This document shows, one piece after another, positions 18,401-43,207 of a stretch of DNA of 64,000 bases. Below the pieces are notes generated by a model. That model was not told the origin of the DNA, did no database searches, and was given only the letters and a program-made list of their open reading frames with translations. The stretch is from an uncultured Lachnospiraceae bacterium (lineage in GTDB: Bacteria > Bacillota > Clostridia > Lachnospirales > Lachnospiraceae), in the NCBI GenBank assembly GCA_947243855.1, contig CAMXIK010000004.1, positions 87,413-151,412 on the forward strand, read 5' to 3'. Numbering within the stretch: the first letter of the stretch is position 1; every line of letters begins with the position of its first letter. The translations under genes were made by a program, and so were the position numbers.

Positions 18401-21400
18401 TTACGGCAGTCTGCCCGAGCCGGAGAAGACGGGATACTCCTTTAAGGGGTGGTATACGCAGGCGGACGGTCAGGGAGACTCGGTTCTGGAAACCACGAAG
18501 ATGACGGTGGCGCAGGATCATGAGCTGTACGCATACTGGGTGGACGATCTGAAGCCCGATGCGCCTGTTTTGCAGGACGGTACGACGCTGCCGAAAGACT
18601 GGACCCATGACCAGAAAACGATTCCCCTTACCCTCCACGACGGCGTGGGCGTGACAGAGCTGTGGGTGAGCGTGGATGGCGGCGCTTACATGAAAGTAAG
18701 CGGCTTTACCGGGCAGCCCGGCGACGACGATTACGATTATGTCTATGAGGGCGTGCAGGAGGGCAGCCATACTTACCGGTTTAAGGCAAAGGATGAAGCG
18801 CAGAATGAGTCCGCTCTCAGCGAATTGTTTACGGTAAAGCTGGATACCGTGACGGCAGGGCTTACGGTGACGGGCCCGGCTGTGGGCGCGGAGAAAAAGA
18901 CGGGACTTGTCCTGAATGTAAAGTCAGGCAGCTTCGGTCCCAGCGGCGGTGCGCTGTCAGTCAAAAAGGACGGGCTGCTTGCCACGGAAACGACCATCAT
19001 GAGCAGTGCGGCAGACGGCGTATTGTCGGCAGACTATACGGTGAAGGAGAAAGGAACTTATCACTTTTATAGCCGTACCAATGCCAACAAAGCGGACGAC
19101 GCAGCGGCAAAAGAGACTCGGTATGTGCATCAGGTGACGTTTGACAGCGAGGGCGGCAGTGCGGTGGAACCGCAGCTCGTGTGGACATCCCGGGAGGATG
19201 AAAATGATGGCGGCGATATGGGAGGCGGTGCGGACGGTACAGCGGAGTGTAAGGTGAAAAAGCCTGCCGACCCGACGCGGACAGGGTATCACTTTGGCGG
19301 TTGGTATACGGACAAGGCGTGCGGGGATGCGGATGCTTTTGATTTTGATACCCAGATTTATGAAGATACCACGCTTTATGCTAAATGGACGCAGGATTCC
19401 GTGCCGGAGATTACGGCGCAGCTGTCGGCACAGAGCGGTACAACCGGGTGGCATACGGAAAAACCGCACATTACCCTGACTTATGCCGACACGAAGGGCG
19501 TGACGCAGGTTCTGGTTTCCGTGGACGGCGGGGAGTATGAGGTGTTTTTGGATTTCGCAGGGGGCAGCCCGGCGCAGCTTCCCACGTCCGGGACAGATAC
19601 TTATACAGAGCTGCGGCAGGGAGATCATACCTATACATTCCGGGTGGTAAACACCACAGCCTTAACGGAAGAGACGGAAAAGATTCGTGTCAAACTGGAT
19701 ACGGTGAAGCCAGAGCTCGGCGACGTCTCTTATAACGAAGGTTATGTAAACCTATGGAACTGGATCATCCGAAAGGACAGTTTGCTTGTCAACATCCCGG
19801 TGACGGAGGAGGGAAGCGGACTTGCGAAGGTGACCTACACGCTGACGCCCGGCAGTATGCAGAGTGCGGCAGCGGTTACAAAGGAGGCGAAGATAGAGAA
19901 GAAAGAGACAGATGCCGGGACGGTGTATACGGCGGTGATTGCCGTTGATCCGGATTACAAGGGCGTGATCGGGGATATCCAGGCGGTGGATGCTGCCGGA
20001 AACGTGTCGGAGCCAAAGACCGCATACGCGAACGGCATCGGCGTGATCGTGGAAAAGCAGAAACCGATCATTACCGTGAAGGCGGATCGTCTGCCCACGG
20101 AAAGTTTGGCGGGAAGTAAGCCGGAGGGAGAAGCGCTTTCCACGGCATATTACCAGACCGCGCCGAAGCTTCTGGTGACGGTGCAGGACGGCAGTATGGC
20201 GGCGTCCGGCATCAGGGAAGTGAAGTGGCAGATTGGCAGCGGCAGTGAACATATCGTGTCCGAAGATTTTGTGACCGCCATGAAAACGGAATGTGCTTTT
20301 GATATCGACAGTTTAAGCGGCCTTGCCGGCGCGGTGCAGGTGAAAATCACGGCTGTGGACAATGCCGGAAACAGGGAGAGTCTGACCCTGACGGTAAGGA
20401 TTAAGGGCAAGGAGCAGAAGCCGGACGCGAAGCCCGACTATTTGACGGAAAAGCTGACAGGGCTTATGCCGAATGCAGATTATCTGCTTGGGACAGCGGA
20501 CGGTATGGAGATTTCCCGCAAGGCTGATGCCGAAGGCAATATCAGGATAGACGACGGTTGGTTCGGTACGGAAATTGCGATCATAAAGAAGGGTGACGGT
20601 ACAAACACCGAGGACAGTGATGCCCAGAACCTTTCGCTCGCGGCACGCCCGGCGGCGCCAAACCTCGGAAAGAGCGACGAGACAATCAAAGGTAAGAAGG
20701 ACGGAACGATTACGGGGCTGACGACGGCTATGGAGATCAGTACGGACAGCGGCAGGACATGGACGAAAGCCACGGGAAATCTTTCCGATGCGGCGGCAGG
20801 ATCATACCTTGCGCGGATGGCGGCGGCACAGACCGCGCCCTACGGAAAAACGGCCGAGATTGTGGTGGGAGAGGGCAGAACCCTCACCGTCAGCTTTGAT
20901 TCGCAGGGCGGAAGCGCGGTATCTCCTGTGACGGGGCTGTCATGGCAGGCGACGGTCAAAAAGCCCTCTGACCCGGCAAAGGCGGATTTGGCGTTTGTGG
21001 GGTGGTTTCGGGAAGCTTCCTGTAGGAACCGCTGGCATTTTGCGGCGCAGGACGGGGCGGACCGGGTGGAGTCGGATGTGACCCTGTACGCGAAATGGCT
21101 TACGAGAGCGGAAACGCCTGCGGCGGTGATTGCTTACCGCACGGAAACCATGACGGAACTGACGCCCGGCGCGGTTTATCTGATCGAAGGAAAAGAGTTT
21201 ACCGCTTCGGCGGAAGGCGTTGTGGCGATTGACGAGAGCTGGTTTGGGAAAACGATTCGGATTATCAGGAGAGGAAACGGGGTAGATACAGGGGACAGCA
21301 ATCCCCAGCTTCTGCCGGTGCCGAACCGTCCGGCGGGCCCCGGGCAGGTGGAGCCGCAGGCCGAGAGCAGAGAGGGCGGAAAGGACGGAAAACTGACGAA

Positions 21401-22829
21401 AACAGACACAACCATGCAGTACCGAAAGAAAGGAAGCGTAGAGTGGATATCCGTCACGGTCGGGGAAGTCACAGGGCTGGAACCCGGCGATTACGAGCTG
21501 CGTTATGTGGCGACGGACACGGCCTTTTCCTCGGAGATTGTGGTGAAGACGGTCAAACCATATAGTCCGCCGAAGAAGGAGGATGACAAGAAGAAAGAGG
21601 ATATTGACAAAACGGGAGACGGAGGAGGGAATCCCGGTGGAGAGACACCGCCTGCCGGGGGTGGCACAGGCGGCGGACAGCCCGGCGGCACGAATCCGGG
21701 CGATACAAAACCGGGCGGAGGCACAGACCCGAGCGGAGACAGAAACGCGGGAGACGATGGCACAGACCCTACGGGTGGCAGAAAACCGGGCGACGACGGC
21801 ACAGACCCTACGGGTGGCAGAAAACCGGGCGACGACGGCGCAGACCTTACGGGTGGCAGAAAACCGGGCGACGGCGGCACAGACCCGAGCGGCGGTATAG
21901 AATCCGGGGACGAGACTGATCCGAAGCGCGGTACGGCGCCGAAACATACTGTGGAGGACGGCAGGATTGTGCCTGCATCGGGAAACGACAGCGGTATTGA
22001 CGGAAACAGCGCAGACGGAAACGGCACGGGCTATGGAGGAAACGGGACAGGAAGCGGCAACAGCGGAAACGGAGACGGCACGGGATATGGAGCGGATGGC
22101 AGCGAAAGTTGGGCAAAAGCGCATCCTTACGCGGTCGGCAAGACTGTGGAAACTTTGACTATCCCCGTGGACGCGGGCGCAGTCATTGTGACGGTCAACA
22201 ATGTGGATGAGACGCTGTGTACGGCGCAGGCGGCGGATGCCGTGGCGGTGACGAACGCGGTGCTGACAAAGGAGGAGATTGCACGGGTATCGAAGGGAGA
22301 AACCATTGAGATCCGCATTGACGTGGAACGGATCGACGACAAGGTAGGCAAAGAGGAGAAGTCCGTAATCGAACAGGGAATCGAGGACGCACAGAAGGAA
22401 ACGAGCGGTCTGACAATCGGCATGTATGTGGATATTTCCATGTTTATGCGCAGAGGTGAAGGCGAGTGGAACGCGGTTCATGAGACAGGCGAGCCGGTGG
22501 AAATCATAATTGATATACCAGAGGAGCTTTGCGAACTGACCGCAGACTTTTACATTGCGCGGGCACACGCGGGAGAGTGCACTTTGCTTCAGGATCTGGA
22601 TGATGCGGCGGAGACGATTACCATTGAGACGGAGCGGTTTTCCACCTACGCGATTGCGTATCAGCTGCTTGCGGACCAGAACGGCGGACGCTGCGGATTG
22701 TGCCATATCTGCCCGACGTTTTTGGGGATATGTTACTTTATCTGGCTGCTTTTGATTGTGGCTGCCGCGATTTTGCTGATTATCATTTTGCAGCGGAGAA
22801 AAGATAAGGAACCGCAGGAAGAGAGCTGA
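12498..22829 (+). CDS. giant multidomain surface protein with Listeria-Bacteroides repeats and C-terminal membrane anchor
   Basis: About 3443 residues. I choose ATG 12498 (GAAGGAGTG site upstream), because the in-frame ATGs at 12438 and 12468 lack good sites; ATG 12528 is also possible. A basic N-terminus and hydrophobic stretch (GVLALAMVLTQQ) ending near SVHAEQ form a signal peptide. In order: acidic 11-residue repeats (12847-13011), a segment with CPVCGL (about 13510), a glutamine-amidotransferase-like domain (about 13770-14440), Ig/fibronectin-like modules, and at least five Listeria-Bacteroides repeats with GGWYT and LYAKWT signatures (about 17960-18540, 19130-19395, 20880-21105). A Pro/Gly-rich 13-residue repeat linker (21748-21898), a conserved beta-rich domain (about 22090-22670), and a transmembrane helix with a basic tail close the protein. 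There is no LPXTG. Probably an adhesin-like cell-surface protein; ligand unknown. A run of nine G at 12793-12801 may cause phase variation. Confidence 0.9.
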   Translation: MNRKDDHNSGMNKRGRKTGRRILTGVLALAMVLTQQSEFAGILSVHAEQKEEACRITGFVPLSADVREQRVPVGTDIADLSLPDTLEAYVLTEDAENEWGGVESESPKDPEEEDDGEEQNPGYGNDSEEQNPGDGNDSEEQNPGDGDGGEEQNPGDGDGGEEQNPDDGGDSGENESGGGNENAGGNGEENPDADSTGGSREQDGDAQDEARAAQITRETVGFSIKTGSFVMPAYGSEHTQDDLIAGTLTTDGQDTDTMPAEEKDASEDVRTESETNTEEVTIEDITWEPAPSYDGDTEGVYLFTPILPEEYELAEDVSLPEIRVSVGCIHGIVAAGEDCPVCGLQEEIDALPDAEEVEEALQGMFTGTSRMSEEEIEALYERLLALSDTYEGFPREWQEMVDAEKLFALLALFSGEDRLMTTADGKDVLIFSTELKPLYYDTELRQFVESVAQVFSDAGYGVRLKADDKVRHLSEDDMDGIGLMILFLPGWPLIDGDISLMRDFLASGGRIVMIGENSAVFYKENRILSEAAEKLGADFRIEDKFIGTRTSIAKGSADMPATALTQDVKESLTCDYLAPITYTGSAESVLLLNGQPWMVDQAAGRGRITAIGDCNCFDSLNGSHGWKGTEQEKKDTKAWILRWLLDARENQRTVLEGKDPNLGFAGSLIFSIDAKEHVAELGDYTFTVTYTGSDRSPNGEINEATVGTDDVTVKDSAGASLLISKAEIVSGRGTKKLVVRYTVEAQQSNSFTPGDYTIDINNAAVADKAGKQVGGNPQAAVFHVTSSPLRITGPDNLVIPQGGTGVLSVSVSSVDGKSYTYQYQWYQKKNDVYEAVTGATRAAYTLSAAQTAVPGEYTYRCEVWANGHPEFRIPSEDALVTVEKGIAIDTPTAAEIAGKDCDYTLSATLLEPGSDRIVETGFVWGIMGSPTLSLNGGSAKTASPVTAANQKISVAVTGLTKTVTYYGRAYVKTAGGNVVYSNAVPFGKTGNLGQFSVKNNGDNTFTVTLTGGVGEQMVFYRTVNGSAVGGTHFTHKAGMLTFNGSGSQTVTVTEHAVTSAYGGETSTAYANADRTYSLEIYRPMGGATILAGTATRTMAKNSSYAVSRDVYQEKERSYSTSNDNKYVVDRSKTNNHQVFYSNNRGYNTSHLDNVGCYKNFNVQRTIAAWDDKVNAYVKATADGYYYRLRFTGVEEEDGYEHIWIADHAPNSFNSGNEYDGPVALEDSNVGSAKYTARWETENGKNMTVTVPGAGERSNVYDFNTQVRSGAVEGDYLVFGLYDEANIWFAATGKDQDRWVMLTYKDWTKIKDETEPQLLGVAPMAQTAYAVGDNITIALVFDEIVDVKNSTLGSVRIQTNVTSDLSYSGGGDTNVLYFTGKVTTEFKGGDIQLKGITGSSYIKDMCDTTGTANTNTSGTTTITTTGTSAPKITLTNNGVTEGVAKAQISVQNADLLQYCFTQDAGMPAVGWTKAGSLSYTATNPALTAGTYYLHVMAINRSTGEAAYEKTSFTVTPQQQQEQEQKLTLTADTDNSQWARSRTILLEKQGSGTLTLNVKKPDGTSQSVTGNSYTAAANGNYVFTLSNGSKNVTKTVTVEKIDRTNPKVTVSAIPTPWQASAPTVTISGTDVGGSGIASLQYKWVTTKGAYPTSGLTSLGKTGTSVNGTVSGSGLTDGVNYLYYKAVDSVGNTVQGYSSALRLDRITPTITLGAAQADGPNAIFSVQVTFGPSAGRTVCQKQGDSYAMTVRGNTFGVNEAGQYTFTATSGAGKQATKAAPGICSVTLNAGEGIFESDMQAEDEEPSHTDTWLVVSGGKIVEPVYGAPIREHYTIKGWYTNSACTTPYNFNTAVTANRTLYAGWTPDSYSVTYEKNGGTITDETGYQEYTYGKGLTLPTAAQIERTGYTFGGWYTDEDFAEDTKVTELTATDADDKTFYAKWTANEYTVTYDYQGATGAADQETKTVTYDDPYGSLPEPEKTGYSFKGWYTQADGQGDSVLETTKMTVAQDHELYAYWVDDLKPDAPVLQDGTTLPKDWTHDQKTIPLTLHDGVGVTELWVSVDGGAYMKVSGFTGQPGDDDYDYVYEGVQEGSHTYRFKAKDEAQNESALSELFTVKLDTVTAGLTVTGPAVGAEKKTGLVLNVKSGSFGPSGGALSVKKDGLLATETTIMSSAADGVLSADYTVKEKGTYHFYSRTNANKADDAAAKETRYVHQVTFDSEGGSAVEPQLVWTSREDENDGGDMGGGADGTAECKVKKPADPTRTGYHFGGWYTDKACGDADAFDFDTQIYEDTTLYAKWTQDSVPEITAQLSAQSGTTGWHTEKPHITLTYADTKGVTQVLVSVDGGEYEVFLDFAGGSPAQLPTSGTDTYTELRQGDHTYTFRVVNTTALTEETEKIRVKLDTVKPELGDVSYNEGYVNLWNWIIRKDSLLVNIPVTEEGSGLAKVTYTLTPGSMQSAAAVTKEAKIEKKETDAGTVYTAVIAVDPDYKGVIGDIQAVDAAGNVSEPKTAYANGIGVIVEKQKPIITVKADRLPTESLAGSKPEGEALSTAYYQTAPKLLVTVQDGSMAASGIREVKWQIGSGSEHIVSEDFVTAMKTECAFDIDSLSGLAGAVQVKITAVDNAGNRESLTLTVRIKGKEQKPDAKPDYLTEKLTGLMPNADYLLGTADGMEISRKADAEGNIRIDDGWFGTEIAIIKKGDGTNTEDSDAQNLSLAARPAAPNLGKSDETIKGKKDGTITGLTTAMEISTDSGRTWTKATGNLSDAAAGSYLARMAAAQTAPYGKTAEIVVGEGRTLTVSFDSQGGSAVSPVTGLSWQATVKKPSDPAKADLAFVGWFREASCRNRWHFAAQDGADRVESDVTLYAKWLTRAETPAAVIAYRTETMTELTPGAVYLIEGKEFTASAEGVVAIDESWFGKTIRIIRRGNGVDTGDSNPQLLPVPNRPAGPGQVEPQAESREGGKDGKLTKTDTTMQYRKKGSVEWISVTVGEVTGLEPGDYELRYVATDTAFSSEIVVKTVKPYSPPKKEDDKKKEDIDKTGDGGGNPGGETPPAGGGTGGGQPGGTNPGDTKPGGGTDPSGDRNAGDDGTDPTGGRKPGDDGTDPTGGRKPGDDGADLTGGRKPGDGGTDPSGGIESGDETDPKRGTAPKHTVEDGRIVPASGNDSGIDGNSADGNGTGYGGNGTGSGNSGNGDGTGYGADGSESWAKAHPYAVGKTVETLTIPVDAGAVIVTVNNVDETLCTAQAADAVAVTNAVLTKEEIARVSKGETIEIRIDVERIDDKVGKEEKSVIEQGIEDAQKETSGLTIGMYVDISMFMRRGEGEWNAVHETGEPVEIIIDIPEELCELTADFYIARAHAGECTLLQDLDDAAETITIETERFSTYAIAYQLLADQNGGRCGLCHICPTFLGICYFIWLLLIVAAAILLIIILQRRKDKEPQEES
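12793..12801 (+). repeat. nine-G homopolymer inside the coding region of the giant surface gene
   Basis: Nine consecutive G residues about 100 codons after the start. They are read as TGG GGG GGG GTA. Gain or loss of one G would shift the frame near the N-terminus. Confidence 0.9.
12847..13011 (+). repeat. 33-bp tandem repeats encoding an acidic 11-residue unit
   Basis: Five near-identical 33-base units encode variants of EEQNPGDGNDS / EEQNPGDGDGG. The copies are closest to each other in the centre, as expected for a repeat that expands and contracts by recombination without changing frame. Confidence 0.85.
21748..21898 (+). repeat. 39-bp tandem repeats encoding a Gly/Pro/Asp-rich 13-residue unit
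   Basis: Three to four units encoding DDGTDPTGGRKPG lie in the linker just before the conserved C-terminal domain, as in spacer regions that lift adhesins away from the cell. Confidence 0.85.
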
Positions 22830-22866
22830 GGATTTTTATAAGAAGGAAAGGAAGAGAGGATGAGGG

Positions 22867-22899
22867 CAGCGTACATCGGAAAGGATGTGCGCTGTTTTT
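22867..22899 (+). terminator. intrinsic terminator of the giant surface gene
   Basis: CAGCGTACATC (22867-22877) pairs with GATGTGCGCTG (22884-22894) with one G-U pair, followed by five T. Confidence 0.85.
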
Positions 22900-23261
22900 C
22901 TGCTAATTTGTCCTTTTGAATTTAATTTAGTCATTTTTATTTATTGTGATTAAATTAAGCTTGACTTTGATATTGTTGAAAGATAATATGGAAATATAAG
23001 AAACAGTATATTTTTTGTTGATATTGTGAAGAAACCTTGACGAGGTAATAGGGAAGCATAGGAAACATCTATCAATCCTTTGGCGGGCAGGACGTTTCCC
23101 CGACACTTGAGGAAAAAGAGAGGGAGTAAAATTAATAGATGATCATACTTTGATTGCGTTGACCATTATGATTGCGGAATCGCGGCCAGAGGAAATGGAA
23201 ATGATGATCACGGTGGTGATGAACTGTATCAAATATATTTAGATTTATAAAGGGGGAAATT
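22900..23261. other. intergenic region with one possible small ORF
   Basis: AT-rich region between the giant gene and fic. It contains a possible ORF at 23150-23242 (TTG start, 30 residues, MIALTIMIAESRPEEMEMM, then a helix ending CIKYI) that lacks a good ribosome binding site. It could be a short leader or a remnant. An imperfect inverted pair GGAAAC/GTTTCC is at about 23062-23098. Confidence 0.35.
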
Positions 23262-23885: not shown

Positions 23886-24025
23886 TGCGATGGCTTGATT
23901 TTTCTCTGATATATTTTTGCAAGCTGTAGAAAACTTCCATTTATGCCGATATCATTACCAGAAGTAAATTTCGGGAACAAAAACCTATTTATATATAATT
24001 GACAAGAATAGGAGGTTTACATAAT

Positions 24026-24625
24026 ATGAAAATCGGTGAAGCCCAAAAAGCCTACAGACAACAGCTCGGCCTCCTCAGAGGACAGCGCAGCGACTTTGTA
24101 AAACAACAGAAAGAAAACCGCCAGAAGATGGAGGAAGCCAGAAAGAAAAGCGAAGAGCAGGGCGTGACCTTTGAGTTCTCCGAAGCCTATCTGGAACGGG
24201 AAAAGGAATTGCAGGAGAAAATCGACGAGCTTTCCGGACAGATCAAAAAAGACGAGAAGACGCTTGACGAACTGATTGAGCAGGAGGTCGGGATATTCAA
24301 CAGTGTTGCCTCTAAACAGCAGGCGGACGCGATGAAGGAGTACGGCGAGGAAATGGCCAAGTGTCTGGAAATCGCCAGAAGAATCAGCAGAGGCGACAAG
24401 GTGCCAGCGCAGGATGAAAAGAAGCTGATGGACTTTAATATGGATATCTATAAGATGGCGAAAGAAATGGCGGCCATGAACATGGAGGGAGAACACGAGG
24501 AATGGGATTCCCTCTGGGGAGAGGAAGAGGAGAAAGAGTACGAAGATCCCTTTGAAGCTTCCCAAAATGCGGAGACAGATGTAGAAATGCCGGAAGGCAT
24601 GGAGGCTTCGTCGGAGGCTGAATAG
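24026..24625 (+). CDS. coiled-coil protein of unknown function
   Basis: A 199-residue charged protein. The ATG at 24026 follows TAGGAGGTTTACATAAT; an upstream in-frame ATG at 23999 has no such site. Residues about 20-100 are a long heptad-like Lys/Glu-rich helix (KQQKENRQKMEEARKKSEEQ and then a second helix with LQEKIDELSGQIKKDEK), followed by a helical segment and a strongly acidic tail (WGEEEEKEYEDPFEASQNAE). No signal peptide or membrane helix. I do not recognise a named family. The ribosome binding site overlaps one copy of the recurring 10-mer (GTTTACATAA, 24015-24024). Confidence 0.7.
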   Translation: MKIGEAQKAYRQQLGLLRGQRSDFVKQQKENRQKMEEARKKSEEQGVTFEFSEAYLEREKELQEKIDELSGQIKKDEKTLDELIEQEVGIFNSVASKQQADAMKEYGEEMAKCLEIARRISRGDKVPAQDEKKLMDFNMDIYKMAKEMAAMNMEGEHEEWDSLWGEEEEKEYEDPFEASQNAETDVEMPEGMEASSEAE

Positions 24626-24670
24626 CAGGGATTTAGGCGAAAAGAGGGCTTGGTTCTATAAAAGGATGTG

Positions 24671-24707
24671 ACGGTGGTTTTTCGATGAGGGAGAACCGCC
24701 GTTTTTT
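24671..24707 (+). terminator. intrinsic terminator
   Basis: ACGGTGGTTTTT (24671-24682) pairs with GAGAACCGCCGT (24691-24702), followed by a run of T. Confidence 0.8.
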
Positions 24708-24728
24708 GCAATGATGTGCGAAAAATTC

Positions 24729-24757
24729 TTGAGAGGTGTGCATAATCATGATATAAT
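24729..24757 (+). promoter_or_regulatory. promoter of the DUF1016 nuclease gene
   Basis: TTGAGA (24729-24734) and TATAAT (24752-24757) separated by 17 bases, leaving a 140-base AT-rich leader before the gene. Confidence 0.65.
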
Positions 24758-26959: not shown

Positions 26960-28183
26960 ATGAATGTGATAGAAGGAGGCGTCACCGCGGCGGCCGGATT
27001 TGAAGCGGCCGGTGTGGAGGCGGGCATTAAATATAAGAATAGAAAGGACATGTCTTTACTTTACAGTCGGGTGCCCTGCCGCGCAGCCGGAGTGTTTACC
27101 GGTAATGTGGTGAAAGCGGCGCCCGTTTTGTGGGACAGGGAAATTGTGGCTCATTCCCCTTACGCGCAGGCGGTCGTTGTCAACGCGGGTATCGCAAACG
27201 CTTGTACCGGAAAGCAGGGATATGACTGCTGCAGGCAGACGGCGAAAAAGGCGGCGGAAGAACTGAATATCCCGGAGGACGCCGTGCTGGTGGCTTCCAC
27301 CGGCGTGATCGGCTGGCAGCTTCCCGTGAACAAGATCGAGGCGGGAGTGGAAAAGCTGGTCAAAGAAAAGGCCCACACGAGAGAAGCGGGACAGGCGGCG
27401 GTGGAGGCTATGATGACCACGGACACGAAGCCGAAGCAGGCGGCGGTGGAGATTGAGATTGACGGGAAAACCGTGACCGTAGGCGGTATGTGCAAGGGTT
27501 CCGGCATGATTCATCCGAATATGTGCACCATGCTTGGGTTTATCACCACGGATCTGGCGATTTCCAAGGAGCTGCTGCAGGAGGCTCTGCGGGAGGATGT
27601 GCAGGACACCTTTAACATGATTTCTGTGGACGGCGATACCTCCACCAACGATACGCTGGTAGTGCTGGCCAACGGTCTGGCGGGTAATGCCGAGATCACA
27701 GAGAAAAATGCGGATTATGACAAGTTTAGGGAAGCGCTTCATTATATCGACGAGACCCTTGCCAAAATGATGGCCGGGGACGGGGAAGGCGCGACGGCCC
27801 TGTTTGAGACAAAGGTAATCCATGCGGCTACGAAAGAAGAAGCGCGTATCTTATGCAAATCCGTGGTTTGCTCCAGCCTCACCAAAGCCATGATCTATGG
27901 GCATGACGCCAACGTGGGACGGATTATGTGCGCCCTCGGCTATGCGGGCGTGGACTTCGACCCGGAACAGGTGGATCTTTTCTGTGAGAGCGACGAGAAC
28001 CGGATGCAGATTTGTAAGGACGGGATGCTGACGGACTACGACGAGGAGGAAGCGACTAAGATTTTGTCTGCGCCAGAGGTGCGGGTGATCGTGGACATGC
28101 ACAGGGGAGAGGCGCAGGCCGCCGCATGGGGATGCGACCTGACGCATGAGTATGTCAATATCAATGCGGATTACCGCAGCTAG
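26960..28183 (+). CDS. argJ: bifunctional ornithine acetyltransferase/N-acetylglutamate synthase
   Basis: A 407-residue ArgJ. The autoprocessing site is in GMCKGSGMIHPNMCTMLGF, where Thr190 becomes the N-terminal nucleophile of the beta chain; the more common NMATML is NMCTML here. VNAGIANACTG and VASTGVIGWQLP are further family signatures. ArgJ transfers acetyl from N-acetylornithine to glutamate (cyclic arginine pathway) and in some species also uses acetyl-CoA. It is first in argJ-argB-argD. No argC is in the window; it may lie elsewhere. A GTTTACATAA copy of the recurring motif lies just after the stop. Confidence 0.97.
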   Translation: MNVIEGGVTAAAGFEAAGVEAGIKYKNRKDMSLLYSRVPCRAAGVFTGNVVKAAPVLWDREIVAHSPYAQAVVVNAGIANACTGKQGYDCCRQTAKKAAEELNIPEDAVLVASTGVIGWQLPVNKIEAGVEKLVKEKAHTREAGQAAVEAMMTTDTKPKQAAVEIEIDGKTVTVGGMCKGSGMIHPNMCTMLGFITTDLAISKELLQEALREDVQDTFNMISVDGDTSTNDTLVVLANGLAGNAEITEKNADYDKFREALHYIDETLAKMMAGDGEGATALFETKVIHAATKEEARILCKSVVCSSLTKAMIYGHDANVGRIMCALGYAGVDFDPEQVDLFCESDENRMQICKDGMLTDYDEEEATKILSAPEVRVIVDMHRGEAQAAAWGCDLTHEYVNINADYRS

Positions 28184-28219
28184 TTTACATAACAATAAAA
28201 CAGAAAGAAGAACAAGCAA

Positions 28220-32481: not shown

Positions 32482-33177
32482 ATGCAGGACAAAAAAAGAA
32501 AATTACATGCTAAAAAGACGGGATATGCGGGAATGCTGTTAGCGGCCCTGCTTGTCCTTGGCGGCTGTACCAAGAAGGAGGAGATTCTTTTCTTGGGCGA
32601 AGAAACTGCCGTGGCGGAGCCGGAAGCGGACGAGGTGGCGCAGACGGAATCGACGGAAGAAACAGTACCGCCGGTTCAGACAGAGCCAGATAGGATCTGT
32701 ATTCACGTCTGTGGCGCGGTACAGATGCCGGGCGTCTATGAATTACAGGCGGGAAGCCGTGTCTATGAGGCCGTGCAGGCGGCGGGAGGATTTGCAGCCG
32801 AGGCGGATCAGAATTATGTAAACCAAGCGCAGGAGCTGACAGACGGCGTCAAGCTTGTGATTCCTACGGTGGAGGAAGCGGTAAAAAGCGCTGGTTCACA
32901 GGCTGCAATCGCACAGATCGGCATTGCTGCGGACACGCTTCCGGCCGGAACACAAGACAGCGGTCAGAGTGGAGAAAGCGACGGTAAAATCAACATCAAT
33001 ACGGCCTCCGAGGCGCAGCTTTGCGAGATTCCCGGAATCGGCGCGACGCGGGCTGCGGCCATTGCCGCATACAGGGAATCCCAAGGGGCTTTTCAAAAGC
33101 CGGAGGATATCATGAAGGTAAACGGCATTAAGGAAGGCATGTACGAAAAGATAAAAGACAGCATCAGTGTAAACTAG
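32482..33177 (+). CDS. comEA: ComEA-family DNA-binding competence lipoprotein
   Basis: A 231-residue protein. The lipobox is VLGGC in the N-terminal hydrophobic stretch (LLAALLVLGGCTKKEE), so it is probably lipid-anchored outside the membrane, which differs from the single-TM anchor usual in Bacillus. An SLBB domain follows (RICIHVCGAVQMPGVYELQ to VKLVIPTVEEA), then a low-complexity linker and a C-terminal double helix-hairpin-helix DNA-binding domain (INTASEAQLCEIPGIGATRAAAI and FQKPEDIMKVNGIKEGMYEKI). ComEA binds incoming DNA and passes it to ComEC, found at 36371. Confidence 0.93.
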   Translation: MQDKKRKLHAKKTGYAGMLLAALLVLGGCTKKEEILFLGEETAVAEPEADEVAQTESTEETVPPVQTEPDRICIHVCGAVQMPGVYELQAGSRVYEAVQAAGGFAAEADQNYVNQAQELTDGVKLVIPTVEEAVKSAGSQAAIAQIGIAADTLPAGTQDSGQSGESDGKININTASEAQLCEIPGIGATRAAAIAAYRESQGAFQKPEDIMKVNGIKEGMYEKIKDSISVN

Positions 33178-33195: not shown

Positions 33196-33885
33196 ATGGC
33201 ACAGAGAGTTTTGGTAGTGGACGATGAGAAATTGATCGTGAAAGGGATCAGATTCAGCTTGGAGCAGGACGGCATGGAAGTGGATTGCGCTTATGACGGC
33301 GAGGAAGCCCTGAGGCTGGCGCAGCAAAACGCTTATGACATGGTTCTTCTCGATGTTATGCTGCCCAAAATGACTGGATTTGAGGTGTGCCAGCAGATTC
33401 GTGAATTTTCCAATGTCCCTATTGTTATGTTAACCGCAAAAGGCGACGATATGGATAAAATTTTGGGCTTGGACTATGGCGCGGACGATTACATAACGAA
33501 GCCTTTTAATATTCTCGAGGTAAAAGCCAGAATCAAGGCTATTATGCGCAGGACGAACCGTCAGGGACAGCAGCGGGAAGAAACGGTTAAGGTCGTGGAG
33601 CGGGGCGATATGCGCCTTGACTGCGAAGGCAGGAGGGTGTACATCAGAGACCGTGAGATCAATCTGACCGTCAAAGAATACGAAGTATTGGAGCTTCTGA
33701 TGAAGAACGCGGGAAAGGTTTACGGCAGGGAAGAGCTGCTGCGTCTGGTATGGGGAAACGATTATCCGGGGGATGTGAGAACCGTGGACGTGCATATCAG
33801 AAGACTGCGTGAAAAAATAGAGGAAATTCCCAGCGAGCCCGCGTACGTGCGGACAAAGTGGGGGGTTGGATATTACTTTGCCTAA
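33196..33885 (+). CDS. OmpR-family response regulator (WalR/PhoP-like)
   Basis: A 229-residue regulator. The receiver has DDEK at 9-12, phosphoacceptor Asp53 in LLDVMLPK, Thr in VMLTAKGDD and Lys in DYITKPFN. The OmpR effector domain includes EINLTVKEYEVLELLMKNAG and RTVDVHIRRLREKIEE. It is followed by a kinase whose start lies in its last codons, and by a GerMN lipoprotein. The arrangement of regulator, kinase and lipoprotein suggests an envelope-stress or wall-homeostasis circuit, though the exact regulon is not seen. Confidence 0.92.
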   Translation: MAQRVLVVDDEKLIVKGIRFSLEQDGMEVDCAYDGEEALRLAQQNAYDMVLLDVMLPKMTGFEVCQQIREFSNVPIVMLTAKGDDMDKILGLDYGADDYITKPFNILEVKARIKAIMRRTNRQGQQREETVKVVERGDMRLDCEGRRVYIRDREINLTVKEYEVLELLMKNAGKVYGREELLRLVWGNDYPGDVRTVDVHIRRLREKIEEIPSEPAYVRTKWGVGYYFA

Positions 33886-35347
33886 TATAAAATTACGTCA
33901 AATTCCATTTCTGCGAAGCCTGAAGGGGCGGATCTTTCTGATTCTGCTCGTAGTCGGGCTGATTCCCTGTTTTATCATGCGCTATGCGATTCTGCAAAAC
34001 TATGAGCGCCGGGCAGTCAATGTCCGGACCTCCGATATTTCCACGCAGGTCAGAATTTTGGCAAATCACTTGATTACCTATCATTATTTAGAAGATCCCT
34101 CTTCCGAGGTGATCAATGCGGAGCTGGACCAGTTGTCCAACTTGTATGACGGCCGTGTGCTGATTATCAACGCGGATCTGCGCATTGTGAAGGACACCTA
34201 CGGAATCAGTCAGGGCAAGACCATCATTTCGGAAGAGGTGATCCGCTGCCTGAACGGGGAGAGCGCCAACAAATACGACAGGGAAAACGGCTATATCGAG
34301 ATGACCGTTCCCATTACGGAGACGGTGGATGCGGATCTGCCAGTAGGAATGGGGGAAAAGCTGGAATTGGTGCGGGGCGTTATGCTCGTGAGCGCGTCCA
34401 ACGACAGTATCATTGCGACGATGAACAGTTTGGACAGACAGGCGTTGGTGGTGGAGTCCATTGTGGGCGTGTTGATTTTTGTCATGACCCTTGTGGTGTC
34501 CAAGTATCTTTTCGCGCCCTTTAAAAAGATCATAGAGGCGCTGGATCAGGTGCAGGAGGGGTATACGAACGATCCCATTTCCGTGACGGATTGTCTGGAA
34601 ACCGAGCATATCGGGGACGCCTTTAACAGGGTGCTTGGACGGATGAAGATGCTGGACGATTCCAGACAGGAGTTTGTCTCAAACGTGTCCCACGAACTGC
34701 GCACGCCGATCACCTCCATGAAGGTGCTGGCCGATTCGCTTGTTACCCAAAAGGATGTGCCGATCGAGGTTTACCAGGAATTTATGACCGATATTGCGGC
34801 CGAAATCGAGAGGGAGGATAAGATCATCAACGATCTGCTTTCTTTGGTAAAAATGGACAGAACCTCCGCCGATTTGAATATTTCGGAGGTAGATATCAAT
34901 GCGCTTGTGGAGCTGATTATGAGAAGGCTGCGTCCCATCGCTAACCGCAGGGACATACAGCTTGTGTACGAGAGTCTTCGTCCCGTGACGGCGTCGGTGG
35001 ACGAGGTCAAGCTGACATTGGCGCTTTCCAATCTGGTGGAGAATGCGATTAAGTACAATAAAGAGCACGGTTTTGTGAAAGTGTCGCTGGATGCAGACCA
35101 CCAGTTTTTCACCGTACAGGTGGCGGATTCGGGCGTGGGGATTCCGGAGGATGAATTGGAGCATATCTATGAACGGTTTTACCGTGTGGATAAGTCCAGA
35201 TCCAGAGAGATCGGGGGAACGGGCCTTGGATTATCCATTACGCGGAGCGCTATCCTCATGCACCGGGGCAGTATCAAGGTGTCCAGTGTGGAGGGCGAGG
35301 GAACGGATTTCACGGTAAAAATTCCGCTTAAGTATATTGCGGTTTAG
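33878..35347 (+). CDS. transmembrane sensor histidine kinase (WalK/PhoR-like)
   Basis: About 489 residues. The start is not an ATG: TTG 33878 (site GGGGGTTGGA, spacing 7) or TTG 33866 are both possible and overlap the regulator gene. There is an N-terminal TM helix (FLILLVVGLIPCFIM), an extracellular sensor region (about 35-190), a second helix (VVESIVGVLIFVMTLVVSKYLF), a HAMP domain, the phosphoacceptor H in FVSNVSHELRTPITSMK, and the ATPase motifs LSNLVENAIKYNKEHG, VADSGVGIPEDELEHIYERFY and GGTGLGLSI. It should phosphorylate the regulator directly upstream. Confidence 0.92.
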   Translation: MPNIKLRQIPFLRSLKGRIFLILLVVGLIPCFIMRYAILQNYERRAVNVRTSDISTQVRILANHLITYHYLEDPSSEVINAELDQLSNLYDGRVLIINADLRIVKDTYGISQGKTIISEEVIRCLNGESANKYDRENGYIEMTVPITETVDADLPVGMGEKLELVRGVMLVSASNDSIIATMNSLDRQALVVESIVGVLIFVMTLVVSKYLFAPFKKIIEALDQVQEGYTNDPISVTDCLETEHIGDAFNRVLGRMKMLDDSRQEFVSNVSHELRTPITSMKVLADSLVTQKDVPIEVYQEFMTDIAAEIEREDKIINDLLSLVKMDRTSADLNISEVDINALVELIMRRLRPIANRRDIQLVYESLRPVTASVDEVKLTLALSNLVENAIKYNKEHGFVKVSLDADHQFFTVQVADSGVGIPEDELEHIYERFYRVDKSRSREIGGTGLGLSITRSAILMHRGSIKVSSVEGEGTDFTVKIPLKYIAV

Positions 35348-35357
35348 GGAGGCGGAC

Positions 35358-36299
35358 ATGAGGAGAACGAAATTTGGATTTCTCTGTTTGGTTTTGATCA
35401 TAACGCTGTGTCTCTGCTGCGCATGCACGGCTCGGAACGCGAGACAGGACGGGATTGCCTATCGGATTTATTATGTGAGCAATGATGAGACGAAGATCGT
35501 TGAGCGGGAATATGTGAGCGAAACGACGGACACGGAAGCGCTGCTTTTGGAAATGCTTGGGCAGCTTGCGGCGGTTCCCGAAAAGATGGAATATGAGACG
35601 CCTCTGGCGGCGGAGATTTCCGTGATCGGACATACGCTTGACAGCGGCCTCCTGACCCTTGATTTTGACAAGAATTACAAAAGCCTGTACGGCATCAGGG
35701 AAATTCTTTTGCGCGCCTCCGTTGTGCGGACAGTGACGCAGCTGCCGGGAGTAGAGCGCGTGGCATTTACGGTGGAAGGGGAGCAGCTTACGGACAAAAC
35801 GGGAACGGCGGTTGGCATCATGGCGGCGGACACCTTTATTGAGAATGCGGGCAATGAAATCAACGCCTACGAAAAGGTGAATTTGAGGCTTTATTTTGCC
35901 AATGAGAAGGGAGACCGCCTTGTGGAGGAAAACCGCCGCAACGTAGTGTATAACAGCAATATTTCGCTGGAAAAACTGGTGGTGGAAAAGCTGGTGGAAG
36001 GGCCGGCGGTTACGGGCGCCTATCCGACAATCAATCCGGCGACCAAGATTATCAGTGTCACGGTGCAGGATGGGACATGTTATGTAAACTTAAATAATGA
36101 TTTCCTGAGCCAACCTTACAACGTTCTCTCCGACGTGACCATTTATTCCATTACCAATTCGCTTGTGGAACTGCCAAATGTGAACAGGGTGCAGATTTCC
36201 ATTGACGGGGAGACCAATCTTTCATACAGGGAGAATATGAGTTTGAATACTGTGTACGAGAGAAATTTGGATCTTCTGGAATCTGGAACCGCACAGTGA
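35358..36299 (+). CDS. GerMN-domain lipoprotein
   Basis: A 313-residue lipoprotein starting at ATG 35358 behind GGGAGGCGGAC; the lipobox is within LCLCCACTARN. Two GerMN-like domains (about 60-155 and 175-300) share the pattern LTLDFDKNYKSL/NLNNDFL and TVTQLPGVERVAFTV/SLVELPNVNRVQISI. GerM domains occur in spore-germination proteins and in proteins linked to two-component systems in Clostridia; here the gene sits behind a kinase. It probably acts outside the membrane, possibly binding peptidoglycan or protein partners. One exact TTATGTAAAC motif lies in its coding region (36080-36089). Confidence 0.88.
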   Translation: MRRTKFGFLCLVLIITLCLCCACTARNARQDGIAYRIYYVSNDETKIVEREYVSETTDTEALLLEMLGQLAAVPEKMEYETPLAAEISVIGHTLDSGLLTLDFDKNYKSLYGIREILLRASVVRTVTQLPGVERVAFTVEGEQLTDKTGTAVGIMAADTFIENAGNEINAYEKVNLRLYFANEKGDRLVEENRRNVVYNSNISLEKLVVEKLVEGPAVTGAYPTINPATKIISVTVQDGTCYVNLNNDFLSQPYNVLSDVTIYSITNSLVELPNVNRVQISIDGETNLSYRENMSLNTVYERNLDLLESGTAQ

Positions 36300-36308: not shown

Positions 36309-36340
36309 TTATGTAAACTAAATAAGAACATTATGTAAAC
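36309..36340 (+). repeat. two intergenic copies of the recurring TTATGTAAAC 10-mer
   Basis: Copies at 36309-36318 and 36331-36340, start-to-start 22 bases apart (two helical turns), both followed by (T)TAAATAA. They are in the short gap between the GerMN gene and comEC. Further exact copies occur at 19742, 24015 (reverse), 28183 (reverse), 32814, 36080, 38308, 40323 (reverse), 40365 (reverse) and 43185. Confidence 0.85.
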
Positions 36341-36370: not shown

Positions 36371-38698
36371 ATGCGCAGACCGTTATGCCTGCTTGGGCTG
36401 GCATTCGTGACGGTTCTGCTTGTGGGGATTCCTCTGATTCCACACGATCCGCCGGATTATGGCGCGCTTGACGGGGAAGCGGTTGCCGCCGTGGGACGTG
36501 TGGAGTGGAAGGAGCACAGGATTTCCGGATCGGAGGAAGTCCTTGTGGTTACCTTGGGGCAGGCTGTCATTCTAAAACCGGATCAAGTATCCGTTCTAAA
36601 ACAATTCTTAGGAGATTCTGACACAGCTTTTACAAATTCGATTGCTGTAGATTCCGGAAAGAAACTAGAAAAATTCATAGAAGAAAACAAAGAAAAGTTA
36701 CGGCGGGAGGACGCCGGGGAAATTACGGGGATTTTATGCTATCTTGGGCAGGGGGAGAACCCCGCCATGGGAAGTATCATCTTGGCGGAGGGGAAGTTCC
36801 GCCCGTTTGCCCATGCCACGAATCCCGGAGAATTTGACGCGGCGGATTATTACCGCATGATGGGGCAGCAGGGCAGGTTGATGCGTGCGGTATGTCTGGC
36901 TGAGAGTGGGGATTATTCCTTCTTCCGGGAGAGGCTGTACTGCTGCAGGGAGTATCTATCGCTTCTTCTTAACATATGTTACCCCGAAAAAGAGGCGTCT
37001 ATTATGGGAGCTATGCTTCTGGGAAATAAGGCTATGCTGGATGAGGATGTGAAAAGTCTGTACCAGCAAAACGGCATTATCCATATTTTGGCGATCAGCG
37101 GCCTTCATCTGTCCATTTTGGGAATGGGTTTCCATAGGCTTTTACACCGGCTGCGGGTCCCTAAGGCGGTTAACATAATATTATCCGTCGCCCTGATGTA
37201 CTGCTACGGAACTATGACGGGGATGGGAGTTTCCGTTGTCAGGGCTTTGGTCATGTTCAGTTTGAATTTGTGCGCGTCCCTTGTGGGCAGAACTTATGAT
37301 CTGCTTACGGCCATGATGACGGCGGCTTTTTTGATTCTGATACGGCAGCCGCTTTACTTGACGCACAGCGGCTTTCTCTTTTCTTTCGGTGCGGTCTGCG
37401 GCATTGGGCTTCTTCCGTCGGTATCGGTTCATTTCCCAACGGCGTCTTGTCGTTTCCCTAGGGGAAACCGTTTATTAAAAGCGGTGTTTACGGGAGGCTG
37501 GATTTCCCTTAGCACGCTCCCAGTATATCTGTGTTTTTATTACGAGTTTCCGCCCTATTCCGTGCTGCTTAACCTGATCGTGATTCCCTGCATGGGCGCG
37601 CTTCTCATAAGCGGTGTGGCCGTGATCGCGGCGGCAGCCCTCTTTTTGCCGTTGGGGCGGTTGGCGGCTCTTCCGGGCGTCGGGATTCTGGCTTTTTATG
37701 AAAGGCTCTGCGGTTTTTGTGCGAAACTGCCCGGACAGCGGCTCGTTACGGGGCGGCCCGAAAACTGGCGGATTGTGGCCTTTCTGGCGCTTTTGGGGGC
37801 GGCGGTGATTTTGAGCAAGCGGATTAAGAGCTGGCAGTTTTTCGGTGCGCTTCTGGGAGCGGTTTTTCTTCTTTGCGTCCGTCCGCCGCAGGGGTTTGAG
37901 ATTACCGTATTGGATATCGGGCAGGGCGACTGCATCTATCTGGCGGATGGGCAGGGAGGCCATTATCTGATCGACGGCGGCAGTTCCGATCAGAAAGAGA
38001 TAGAGGCTTATCAGATCGTCCCGTTTTTGAAGTACCGGGGCGTGAAGCGGCTGGACGCGGTGTTTATCAGCCATTCAGACGGGGATCACATCAGCGGGAT
38101 TCAAGGCTTGCTGGAAGAGTACGGGGAAATGGGAATCGAAATCGGCTGTATGTTTTTGCCTGATCTGGCACAAGAGTGTCGGGATGAAAATTATACGGCG
38201 CTGGCGGCTTTGGCGCAGAAACAGGGTGTTCCTGTGCGGACGCTCCATGAGGGGGAACGCTTTGTAAAGGGAAAACTTATGTTAACCTGCCTGCACCCGA
38301 AAGAAAGTTATGTAAACCTAGACGCAAACGCTGGCTCCACGGTTCTTTATTTGACTTACGGGAACTTTTCCGCCCTCTTTACGGGGGATCTGGAAGAGGA
38401 GGGCGAGACGCTTGTAACGGACCTTTTGACGGGACTGCCGACAGGGCCTGTCACCTTTCTAAAAGTGGCTCATCACGGCTCGAAAAATTCCACCTCCGAA
38501 ACATTTTTAGCCGCGGCAAATCCGAGGATCGCTGTGATTTCCGCAGGACGAAATAATTCCTACGGCCACCCCCACAAGGAGACGCTTGAGAGACTTAAAA
38601 ATCATGGGTGCCGAATTTACCAGACGCCCTTGGGCGGCGCGGTGACGGTGCGGGTGAAAAACGGGAGCGTGCGGGTGGAGGAATATTTGGAAAAATGA
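36371..38698 (+). CDS. comEC: ComEC/Rec2 DNA internalisation channel
   Basis: A 775-residue membrane protein for DNA uptake. After an N-terminal signal-anchor and a periplasmic-like region comes the Competence domain (FTLLLSLLLNICYPEKE-type start, then NGIIHILAISGLHLSILGMG and many helices to about residue 490), followed by a metallo-beta-lactamase-like C-terminal domain: VLDIGQGDCIYLA, FISHSDGDHISGIQ and FLKVAHHGSKNST provide the metal ligands. It is full length with no frameshift, so DNA uptake may be functional. comEA lies upstream and holA downstream, the latter as in Bacillus. One exact TTATGTAAAC (38308-38317) is inside the gene. Confidence 0.95.
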   Translation: MRRPLCLLGLAFVTVLLVGIPLIPHDPPDYGALDGEAVAAVGRVEWKEHRISGSEEVLVVTLGQAVILKPDQVSVLKQFLGDSDTAFTNSIAVDSGKKLEKFIEENKEKLRREDAGEITGILCYLGQGENPAMGSIILAEGKFRPFAHATNPGEFDAADYYRMMGQQGRLMRAVCLAESGDYSFFRERLYCCREYLSLLLNICYPEKEASIMGAMLLGNKAMLDEDVKSLYQQNGIIHILAISGLHLSILGMGFHRLLHRLRVPKAVNIILSVALMYCYGTMTGMGVSVVRALVMFSLNLCASLVGRTYDLLTAMMTAAFLILIRQPLYLTHSGFLFSFGAVCGIGLLPSVSVHFPTASCRFPRGNRLLKAVFTGGWISLSTLPVYLCFYYEFPPYSVLLNLIVIPCMGALLISGVAVIAAAALFLPLGRLAALPGVGILAFYERLCGFCAKLPGQRLVTGRPENWRIVAFLALLGAAVILSKRIKSWQFFGALLGAVFLLCVRPPQGFEITVLDIGQGDCIYLADGQGGHYLIDGGSSDQKEIEAYQIVPFLKYRGVKRLDAVFISHSDGDHISGIQGLLEEYGEMGIEIGCMFLPDLAQECRDENYTALAALAQKQGVPVRTLHEGERFVKGKLMLTCLHPKESYVNLDANAGSTVLYLTYGNFSALFTGDLEEEGETLVTDLLTGLPTGPVTFLKVAHHGSKNSTSETFLAAANPRIAVISAGRNNSYGHPHKETLERLKNHGCRIYQTPLGGAVTVRVKNGSVRVEEYLEK

Positions 38699-38785
38699 GG
38701 GAAAAATATGCCAAATTATGCAATTGACCGACGGTGTGCGATATCATATACTGGAAAACAAAATGGGGAAAAAGGAGTTTATGTT

Positions 38786-40135: not shown

Positions 40136-41060
40136 GAATAAAAAGGTAAGACAGACGATTTTGATTTGTGCCTTAATCATTATTTTTGCATTCCCGATCT
40201 TCACATTGATTGAAATAAAGGTGAAGCTACAGAAGCTGAATGGAAACGGGACATTTTTTCAGTTTGTCGCAGAAGAGGAGACAGCGTCGGATGAGGATGA
40301 AATGCCTGTTGTCGAGGACGAGGTTTACATAAATCAAGATGACAATGCAGGAACGTATGAAGAGGTTTACATAAATCAAAATACGGGTTACAGCGTATTG
40401 GTAGAGGATGACGCACAGCTTCTGGATGAGGAAGAGGAGCGGAAGTTAGCGTTGCAGATGCGGGATATCACAGATTACGGAAATGTTATTTTTAAATCAT
40501 CAGACAGCGCAGTCTATGACACAGAGGCCTACGCGGAAGAGTATTACTGGGAAAAACTCGGCACAGACAGCGGTATTTTGCTTTTGATCGATATGGATAA
40601 CCGTATGATATGGATACATAGCGACGGGGCGGTCTATCGGGTGATTACCAAATCCTACGCCAATACGATCACGGATAACATATACCGTTACGCTTCTGGC
40701 GGCGATTATTACGAGTGCGCGGCGCAGGCGTACGGGCAGGCGCTTACGCTTCTTGAAGGAAACAGGATTGCCCAGCCTATGAAGTATGTAAGCAACGCTT
40801 TATTGGCGGTTATATTGGCGTTGTTGTTCAATTATGGATTGGTGTGCTTGGCTATGGGAATCAGGAAACCGCGTAGAAGAGAGCTTCTGGGAAATACTGG
40901 AAATTATTTCCATTATTCGCAGCCGCAGGCAGTCTTTGTCCGGGAGAGCCGCACCTATCATCCCACTAGCAGCAGCGGAAGCGGCAGCAAGCGGAGCGGC
41001 GGAAGTAAGAGCAGCGGCGGCAGCAGAAGGAGCGGCGGCGGAGGAGGACATCGTTTTTAG
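40128..41060 (+). CDS. TPM-domain membrane protein
   Basis: A 310-residue protein whose ATG (40128) overlaps the zinc-ribbon gene by 8 bases and follows GGGGAGGGGAC. N-terminal TM helix (ILICALIIIFAFPIF), then an acidic stretch with a duplicated segment EVYINQ (the two GTTTACATAA copies, 40323 and 40365), then a TPM domain (about 100-240: LLDEEEERKLALQMRDITDYGNVIF). A second TM helix (about 225-250) is followed by a Ser/Gly/Arg-rich tail ending GGGGGHRF. TPM proteins such as B. subtilis YgcG/PSB32-like are thought to act in membrane or photosystem assembly; here the role is unknown. Confidence 0.82.
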   Translation: MFENKKVRQTILICALIIIFAFPIFTLIEIKVKLQKLNGNGTFFQFVAEEETASDEDEMPVVEDEVYINQDDNAGTYEEVYINQNTGYSVLVEDDAQLLDEEEERKLALQMRDITDYGNVIFKSSDSAVYDTEAYAEEYYWEKLGTDSGILLLIDMDNRMIWIHSDGAVYRVITKSYANTITDNIYRYASGGDYYECAAQAYGQALTLLEGNRIAQPMKYVSNALLAVILALLFNYGLVCLAMGIRKPRRRELLGNTGNYFHYSQPQAVFVRESRTYHPTSSSGSGSKRSGGSKSSGGSRRSGGGGGHRF

Positions 41061-41112
41061 GCAGTTTGAAATCTAGTTGTTTTTTAGCGGGTGACCGATT
41101 ATACTGTTAATT

Positions 41113-42090: not shown

Positions 42091-42148
42091 CAGGCATGGG
42101 CGAAAAAGGCGGGAGCACGGGCCTTAACGATATTTGGAAAAGTTATGG

Positions 42149-42178
42149 TTGCACAGAGGGGCACAGTTACAGTACAAT
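42149..42178 (+). promoter_or_regulatory. promoter of thrH
   Basis: TTGCAC (42149-42154) and TACAAT (42173-42178) with an 18-base spacer. Confidence 0.5.
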
Positions 42179-42240
42179 AGAAGCAGAAGTGATGATGCAG
42201 GATCATTTACTACCAATGACAGCGGAGGTATATTGCGGGT

Positions 42241-42852
42241 ATGAATATTGTTTGTCTGGATCTTGAGGGGGTGCTGGTGCCGGAAATTTGGATCGCTTTT
42301 GCGAAGGAGACCGGCATTTCACAGCTTACAAGGACAACCAGAGACGAGCCGGATTATGATAAATTGATGAATTGGCGGATTGGTATTTTGAAGGAGCACG
42401 GGCTAGGCTTAAAGCAGATTCAGGAGACGATTGCCAAGATTGATCCTATGCCGGGAGCGAGGGAGTTTTTGGACGAGCTGCGGCGGATCACGCAGGTTAT
42501 CATTATCAGCGATACGTTTACCCAGTTTGCGGGGCCGTTAATGGAAAAGCTGGGATGGCCGACGATCTTTTGCAATTCTTTGGAGGTGGCCTCTGATGGG
42601 GAGATCACCGGGTATCGGATGCGCGTGAAGGATTCCAAGCTCACCACGGTGAAGGCGTTACAGTCGATCGGATATGAGACCATTGCCGCAGGGGACAGTC
42701 ATAATGATCTGGCCATGATTCAGGCTAGTAAGGCTGGATTTTTATTCAGAACGACGGAACAGATTAAAGGGGAATATCCCGAGCTGCAGGCTTTTGAGAC
42801 CTACGACGAGCTGCTGGGGGCGGTTAAAAAGGCGATTGGTTTTGCAGGATGA
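42241..42852 (+). CDS. thrH: ThrH-type HAD phosphatase (phosphoserine phosphatase/homoserine phosphotransferase)
   Basis: A 203-residue HAD enzyme. Motif I is DLEGVLVPE (D7 and E9; the second Asp is replaced by Glu, a ThrH mark), motif II is IIISDTF, and motif IV is GDSHNDLAM. ThrH can move phosphate from phosphoserine to homoserine and complement serB or thrB defects. With hom and lysC at 50-52 kb and no thrB in the window, this may serve threonine synthesis, but the two clusters are 8 kb apart. The gene has its own promoter. Confidence 0.88.
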   Translation: MNIVCLDLEGVLVPEIWIAFAKETGISQLTRTTRDEPDYDKLMNWRIGILKEHGLGLKQIQETIAKIDPMPGAREFLDELRRITQVIIISDTFTQFAGPLMEKLGWPTIFCNSLEVASDGEITGYRMRVKDSKLTTVKALQSIGYETIAAGDSHNDLAMIQASKAGFLFRTTEQIKGEYPELQAFETYDELLGAVKKAIGFAG

Positions 42853-42885
42853 CGCGGGAGAGAACACAAAAGGAGGGAAATTGCT

Positions 42886-43179
42886 ATGAAATGTGTGCGT
42901 ATGGCCTTTGAGGTTAATGTGGAAAAGTATGAAGTTGGTAAAGGGTTGGAGGACGGCTTTGAGCTGTGGACGGATGTGGTGACAAGAGGATGGTTTGTCA
43001 CGGATTCGCTGGTGCAGATTAAGAAAGAAAACGGCGCGATCGTCTGCCCTTATATTCTCCATAAAAGGGGAAAGACCTTCATCGGCGAGGGGGATTATAT
43101 CATCACGGAGGCGGACGGTTCCCGTCATGTGTGCGGCGGCGAAAAGATCTTTGACAGATATAAGCCGGTCGAAGAGTAG
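42886..43179 (+). CDS. small conserved protein, phage-like domain
   Basis: A 97-residue protein (MKCVRMAFEVNVEKYEVGKG) ending in GEGDYIITEADGSRHVCGGE and KIFDRYKPVEE. This end resembles a short domain found in phage-derived proteins (GDWIIT...C...F..TY). No membrane helices. An AAGGAGGGAAATTGCT site precedes ATG. Function unknown. A TTATGTAAAC copy lies 5 bases after the stop (43185-43194) and a terminator follows. Confidence 0.6.
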   Translation: MKCVRMAFEVNVEKYEVGKGLEDGFELWTDVVTRGWFVTDSLVQIKKENGAIVCPYILHKRGKTFIGEGDYIITEADGSRHVCGGEKIFDRYKPVEE

Positions 43180-43207
43180 ATGTGTTATGTAAACTAAATA
43201 TAATTTT

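Follow-up and report, generated by a model that had tools for sequence, protein, structure and literature searches.

TTATGTHAACY, a clustered and conserved word in a Lachnospiraceae genome: candidate XerD-binding sites for the unloading of SMC

The window analysed here is the final 64 kb of contig C4 in a 3.58-Mb genome of 81 contigs (G000), assigned to an uncultured Lachnospiraceae bacterium. An FMN riboswitch (RF00050, 103 bits) is found at 6639-6756, and a 3463-aa ORF at 12438-22829, which includes five stretches of the Listeria-Bacteroides repeat (PF09479) and probably encodes a large surface protein. Between 23262 and 25998, a gene of the Fic/DOC family, an ORF without a Pfam match and a gene for a YhcG/DUF1016 PDDEXK nuclease adjoin one another. 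Further on lie argJ and argB, a ComEA-like gene (32482-33177), recognised by its SLBB and HHH_3 domains, and comEC (36371-38698), whose product scores above the cut-off of TIGR00361. The following copies of the word TTATGTAAAC, and of its T form TTATGTTAAC, are distributed among these genes; where the aligned place is identical in G018 (a genome of the same genus with a better assembly), the position on contig C4 of G000 is added.

5380..5389, minus strand: TTATGTTAAC, T form
19742..19751, plus strand: TTATGTAAAC, within the 3463-aa ORF
24015..24024, minus strand: TTATGTAAAC, at the beginning of ORF 23999-24625
28183..28192, minus strand: TTATGTAAAC, between argJ and argB
32814..32823, plus strand: TTATGTAAAC, within the comEA-like gene; aligned G018 place identical (C4 120226)
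33425..33434, plus strand: TTATGTTAAC, T form
36080..36089, plus strand: TTATGTAAAC, within ORF 35337-36299 (Germane domain); aligned G018 place identical (C4 123492)
36309..36340, plus strand: head-to-tail pair of TTATGTAAAC (36309 and 36331, 22-base step), directly ahead of comEC
37169..37178, minus strand: TTATGTTAAC, T form
38277..38317, plus strand: TTATGTTAAC (38277) and TTATGTAAAC (38308), 31-base step, within comEC
40323..40374, minus strand: head-to-tail pair of TTATGTAAAC, 42-base step
43185..43194, plus strand: TTATGTAAAC, between ORFs 42886-43179 and 43294-43662; aligned G018 place identical (C4 130597)

The window thus holds 11 exact copies of TTATGTAAAC and four of TTATGTTAAC, and in 100 dinucleotide shuffles the former appeared 0.08 times on average and once at most. 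A previous sequence-only reading of this DNA had reported the same 11 copies, on the same strands, as an excess over chance, with one pair 22 bases apart and eight copies lying between 32.8 and 43.2 kb, in a stretch with comEA and comEC; our counts and domain assignments bear out all of this. The genome-wide count that it had recommended gives 103 copies in G000 (55 on the plus and 48 on the minus strand), against 11 for the reversed word, which served as control.

The word had been counted as an exact 10-mer. The A form indeed predominates, but base 7 also admits T and C: in 775 kb of copy-rich sequence from G000 and G018, A is found at this base 111 times, C 12 times, T 10 times and G once, and the counts of the remaining one-letter variants range from 0 to 7. 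In three relatives (L022, L024 and L027) the T form is even commoner than the A form. The base after TTATGTAAAC is C or T in 51 of the 52 copies from the window and the rich stretches of G000. Taking into account the tolerance at base 7 and this following base, the site is TTATGTHAACY, which is non-palindromic. Upstream of it, A or G is preferred at the third base before, and then A or T at the second base before. Beyond a few flanking bases the copies have no common sequence, and the small repeat family once considered does not fit such limited sharing.

Copies close to one another are arranged head to tail in 38 of the 39 distinct pairs of sites no more than 120 bases apart, eight of the 38 being the comEC pair from different genomes. 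Steps of 19-22 bases recur in several arrays, the longest of which consists of four TTATGTAAAC at a 19-base step (L234 13382-13448, that is, G018 C23 193382-193448). Blocks of orientation on the kilobase scale, suggested by apparent alternating runs on contig C23 of G018, were not significant (P 0.06; with same-strand copies no more than 500 bases apart merged, 0.31) and were discarded.

The position of the word relative to genes was analysed for 100 copies from two genomes, using ORFs of at least 100 codons, which cover 91% of the sequence. The sense strand of an ORF contains 44 copies, the antisense strand 30, and 26 lie outside ORFs, an over-representation given that 9% of the sequence is found there. 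Tyr-Val-Asn, proposed earlier as the reading of coding copies, holds for 29 of the 44 sense copies, leaving 15 other sense copies and the 30 antisense ones. The four stop-free readings contain 29, 15, 16 and 12 copies, and two more overlap a stop reading. Since all four stop-free readings are used, and copies are also found antisense and outside ORFs, a cause of the conservation of the word at the protein or codon level is excluded. Another proposal was a regulator site, and the over-representation outside ORFs, the pair directly ahead of comEC and the head-to-tail disposition of close copies would suit the operator of a transcription regulator with some hundred targets. However, 74 of the 100 copies fall in ORFs, including the 30 antisense ones, and the copies are confined to certain contigs, which weakens this explanation to the point of making it very improbable.

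The distribution over the genome is strongly uneven. Among the 100 of 103 sites listed for G000, C4 has 19, C22 12, C17 10, C6 8, and C14 and C2 six each; a single copy is found on C1 (269 kb) and another on C3 (158 kb), and none on C5, C7, C8, C9, C10, C12 and C15. Over the 15 contigs of known length, chosen since they had already been sampled, the unevenness has a p of 8e-24. In G018, at least 61 of 107 copies are on the 431-kb contig C23, which also holds xerD. Contigs C69 (with xerD), C17, C22 and C4 of G000 map successively to C23 at about 101-103, 156-215, 248-290 and 321-419 kb, most of C4, the contig of the window, falling within it. The GC skew of C23 is negative in all stretches sampled, and the cluster therefore lies on one replichore; no flip of the skew was seen in the stretches of G018 sampled. 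As for the concentration around the competence genes, the window is dense there, but it is only one peak of a longer enriched stretch, with equally dense peaks elsewhere on C23, such as that at 193-197 kb, where eight copies fall within 4 kb. The competence genes are bystanders to the clustering.

The word is also conserved where the surrounding sequence diverges, as the sequence-only reading had asked. Of 42 copies on C4, C22, C17 and C69, 26 can be aligned to C23 of G018 and 16, including the 36309/36331 pair, cannot. Among the former, 22 are identical in G018, two fall partly on N and two differ, one of these being the copy at 38308 in comEC, which has no match there. For shuffled words, 13 of 82 alignable occurrences are identical, and the aligned sequence as a whole is 77.9% identical. 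Selection acts on the DNA word, within and between genes. The TTATGTTAAC/TTATGTAAAC pair of comEC is also present in the comEC of seven related loci (L001-L006 and L013).

It had been suggested, with due caution, that the motif might serve in DNA uptake. The uptake sequences of Haemophilus and Neisseria are likewise short, over-represented words that also occur in genes, and the window does contain com genes. However, those sequences have very many copies over the whole genome, whereas the word studied here has 103, confined to part of it, with two copies in 400 kb taken from other parts of G000, against 111 in the 775 kb of copy-rich sequence. Base composition, codon usage or a local repeat would explain the data no better, taking into account the use of all four stop-free readings, the lack of flanks common to the copies, and the low-GC bins of C23, which have three sites in 20 bins against 56 in the other 60. 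A genome frequency near expectation, a codon effect and one local repeat family were each looked for and none was found. An uptake sequence, or an artefact of any of these kinds, is hardly credible. Among the earlier proposals, a chromosome-structure motif fits best, given the clustering over hundreds of kilobases, the use of all four stop-free readings and the conservation of the 10-mer.

Comparison with close relatives, also recommended at the outset, places the enrichment in a clade. In the genus of the window, the motif exceeds the control in all 37 genomes searched (2500 against 404 in total). In other genera of the family, 22 of 248 genomes reach both 20 copies and three times the number of the control, by hand count; G162, a genome of another genus with 35 copies against 14 for the control, is outside this set. 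In other families of the order, represented by one genome each, the motif exceeds the control in seven of 24 (229 against 456 in total). Among 80 records of comEC neighbourhoods, at least one copy is present in 36 of the 39 nearest (L001-L039) and in four of the 41 others.

The identity of the word points to a chromosome recombinase. The end of dif that reads TTATGTAAACT is its XerD arm. According to PMC3025954, the dif of Bacillus subtilis is ACTTCCTAGAATATATATTATGTAAACT, ending in TTATGTAAACT, that of Escherichia coli ends in TTATGTTAAAT, and the predicted dif of F. alni in TTATGTCAAGT; a table in PMC2731167 gives the identical last eleven bases, TTATGTAAACT, for Myxococcus. TTATGTAAAC corresponds to the ten bases ahead of the final base in the B. 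subtilis dif so given, an exact match to the XerD arm, and the A, T and C accepted at base 7 are the letters of the B. subtilis, E. coli and F. alni arms, respectively. This identity makes it likely that the word is bound by XerD. An apparently uninterrupted xerD is present on C69 of G000 (359.8 bits, against a cut-off of 329.6); its product aligns well with the solved XerD of E. coli and is the one XerD of G000 above the curated cut-off. Two lesser Xer-like proteins were examined, one nearest to XerS and the other to XerC. Contig C22, dense in sites, has a Xer-like gene, but as this is absent from the genes shared with C23 of G018 it was not favoured as the binder. Contig C12 encodes a third Xer-type recombinase (L113) best matched by the XerS model, with 225 bits, below the cut-off of 267.

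The sites share the exact XerD arm with dif, the 28-bp XerC/XerD recombination site, but differ from it in other respects. Whereas dif occurs once per chromosome and combines a XerC arm, a 6-bp centre and a XerD arm, TTATGTAAAC has 103 copies, and comparison of the 20 bases upstream of the copies gave no common XerC arm. No dif-like 20-mer with up to three mismatches was found in the 64-kb window, and a search for a Firmicute-like dif gave two matches in 25 genomes. A near-palindromic candidate, TTAACGATAA-N5-TTATGTTAAC, is shared by two genera (G162 C1:1691462-1691486 and G284 C36:89760-89784); it contains the T form, no flip of the GC skew occurs at either place, and, allowing up to three mismatches, the G162 candidate is present in two of 53 genomes. 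Neither this search nor that for a Firmicute-like dif found a dif in the genus of the window. Some relatives have a dif-like stretch ahead of comEC; being readable as protein code, it was set aside.

The place of the cluster on the chromosome was studied with G162, whose 3.59-Mb contig starts at dnaA and shows a flip of the GC skew at 1.70-1.80 Mb; 40 pieces of 20 kb from this contig (0.8 Mb) served as gene map. All eight loci from rich pieces of G000 fall 1.25-1.61 Mb from the origin of G162, in its terminus half; this half also receives four of eight loci from copy-poor pieces, three of six from C23 of G018 and three of three from other pieces of G018. As a check on the map, eight of eight loci from dnaA neighbourhoods of the genus land at the origin of G162. 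The mapped pieces of G000 C12 and C15, those nearest to the terminus, have no copies. In 16 copy-rich genomes, the 289 kb around dnaA contain a single copy, whereas the mean of each genome would predict 7.2 (P 0.006); for the ten genomes of the genus alone the figures are one and 4.4 (P 0.064). Exact parS sites are found near dnaA in eight of ten neighbourhoods of the genus, the two without them being the shortest pieces. In several genomes these sites come in pairs about 49 bases apart (48-60), as in the dnaA neighbourhoods L166, L168, L169, L173, L174, L175 and L181.

The arrangement is different in other genera. On the main contig of G162, 32 of 34 copies are in the origin half, with none between 1.18 and 2.63 Mb, and on the largest contig of G209, with dnaA at 14 kb, 31 of 34 are at 0.15-1.62 Mb; seven 4-kb skew samples were too noisy to place the terminus of G209. 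The polarity of the sites with respect to replication was not significant (22 of 34 in G162 and 19 of 31 in G209). An origin-centred reading, initially taken from G162, was dropped for the genus of the window because of the dnaA neighbourhoods and gene maps, and kept for G162 and G209. Considering the origin-half copies of these two genomes and the terminus-half map of the rich pieces of G000, the clustered region differs between genera, its place in the genus of the window being read from a thin map.

In Bacillus subtilis, sites bound by XerD reportedly serve to unload SMC close to the terminus, according to work of Karaboja et al. in 2021. Several papers cite XerD as SMC unloader near this terminus (PMC12322038, PMC8357415, PMC8242196, PMC13220808), and unloading of SMC at dif is stated in another (PMC13342612). 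The case studied here shares with those sites the word itself, which is the XerD arm of the B. subtilis dif, an occurrence in clusters outside dif, a XerD encoded in the genome and, in relatives, parS near dnaA. It differs in having about 100 copies, mostly in genes and spread over hundreds of kilobases in the genus of the window, and in that the copies of G162 and G209 occupy the origin half. The explanation that we favour, with moderate confidence, is that the copies of TTATGTHAACY are candidate XerD-binding sites that would unload SMC. In the genus of the window, SMC would be loaded at parS near the origin and travel down the chromosome arm; before the terminus it would encounter an extended off-ramp of XerD sites, partly arranged as head-to-tail arrays, and XerD on these sites would unload the loop-extruding complexes. 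Beyond the agreement of sequences, we infer that the XerD of this clade would bind the sites, that it would do so at a single arm without XerC, and that binding would remove SMC.

Another sequence-specific protein could instead mark this part of the chromosome, in a role like that of Noc, SlmA or MatP, the match to the XerD arm being due to chance or to a Xer-related binder. Like the word, the matS, Noc and SlmA sites are short, number in the tens and are confined to part of the chromosome; the copies of G162 and G209 avoid the terminus half, which is the layout of Noc and SlmA sites, and the clustered part varies between genera. However, XerD arms are matched by the word, by the letters tolerated at its base 7 and by the bases preferred beside it, the sites of Noc, SlmA and MatP are palindromic and of other sequence whereas TTATGTHAACY is non-palindromic, and no candidate binder was found in a search confined to Xer proteins. 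We consider this explanation rather unlikely. XerD might also bind the sites for a purpose other than SMC unloading, such as being held or titrated there or organising the region. The same sequence evidence would support this role, and terminus unloading does not predict the origin-half layout of G162 and G209; against it, SMC unloading is the one non-recombination role of XerD mentioned in the cited papers, and such another role is judged improbable.

Returning to SMC unloading by XerD, the layout in G162 and G209 is contrary to what unloading at the terminus predicts, and this layout, together with the dif candidates without a skew flip and the failure to find a dif in the genus, is why confidence in it is kept moderate. 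A broader proposal can be put forward only tentatively: a chromosome domain would be written into genes by about a hundred selected XerD half sites, the recombinase would keep an SMC off-ramp hundreds of kilobases long, and the domain would be movable: one genus would have it on the terminus side of the arm, others in the origin half.

A literature search, including one for the word itself, gave no title on this motif in Lachnospiraceae among the matches listed. XerD arms as SMC unloading sites are already known in B. subtilis; what would be new is that a whole clade keeps about 100 such half sites, strongly conserved and for the most part inside genes. The removal of SMC from bacterial chromosomes has been worked out in few species, and about 100 candidate unloading sites, with natural arrays and genus-dependent positions, could be used to ask if their position is sufficient to determine where the zipping of the two arms ends. 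The word is, moreover, a selected DNA code overlaid on the protein-coding genes of common gut bacteria.
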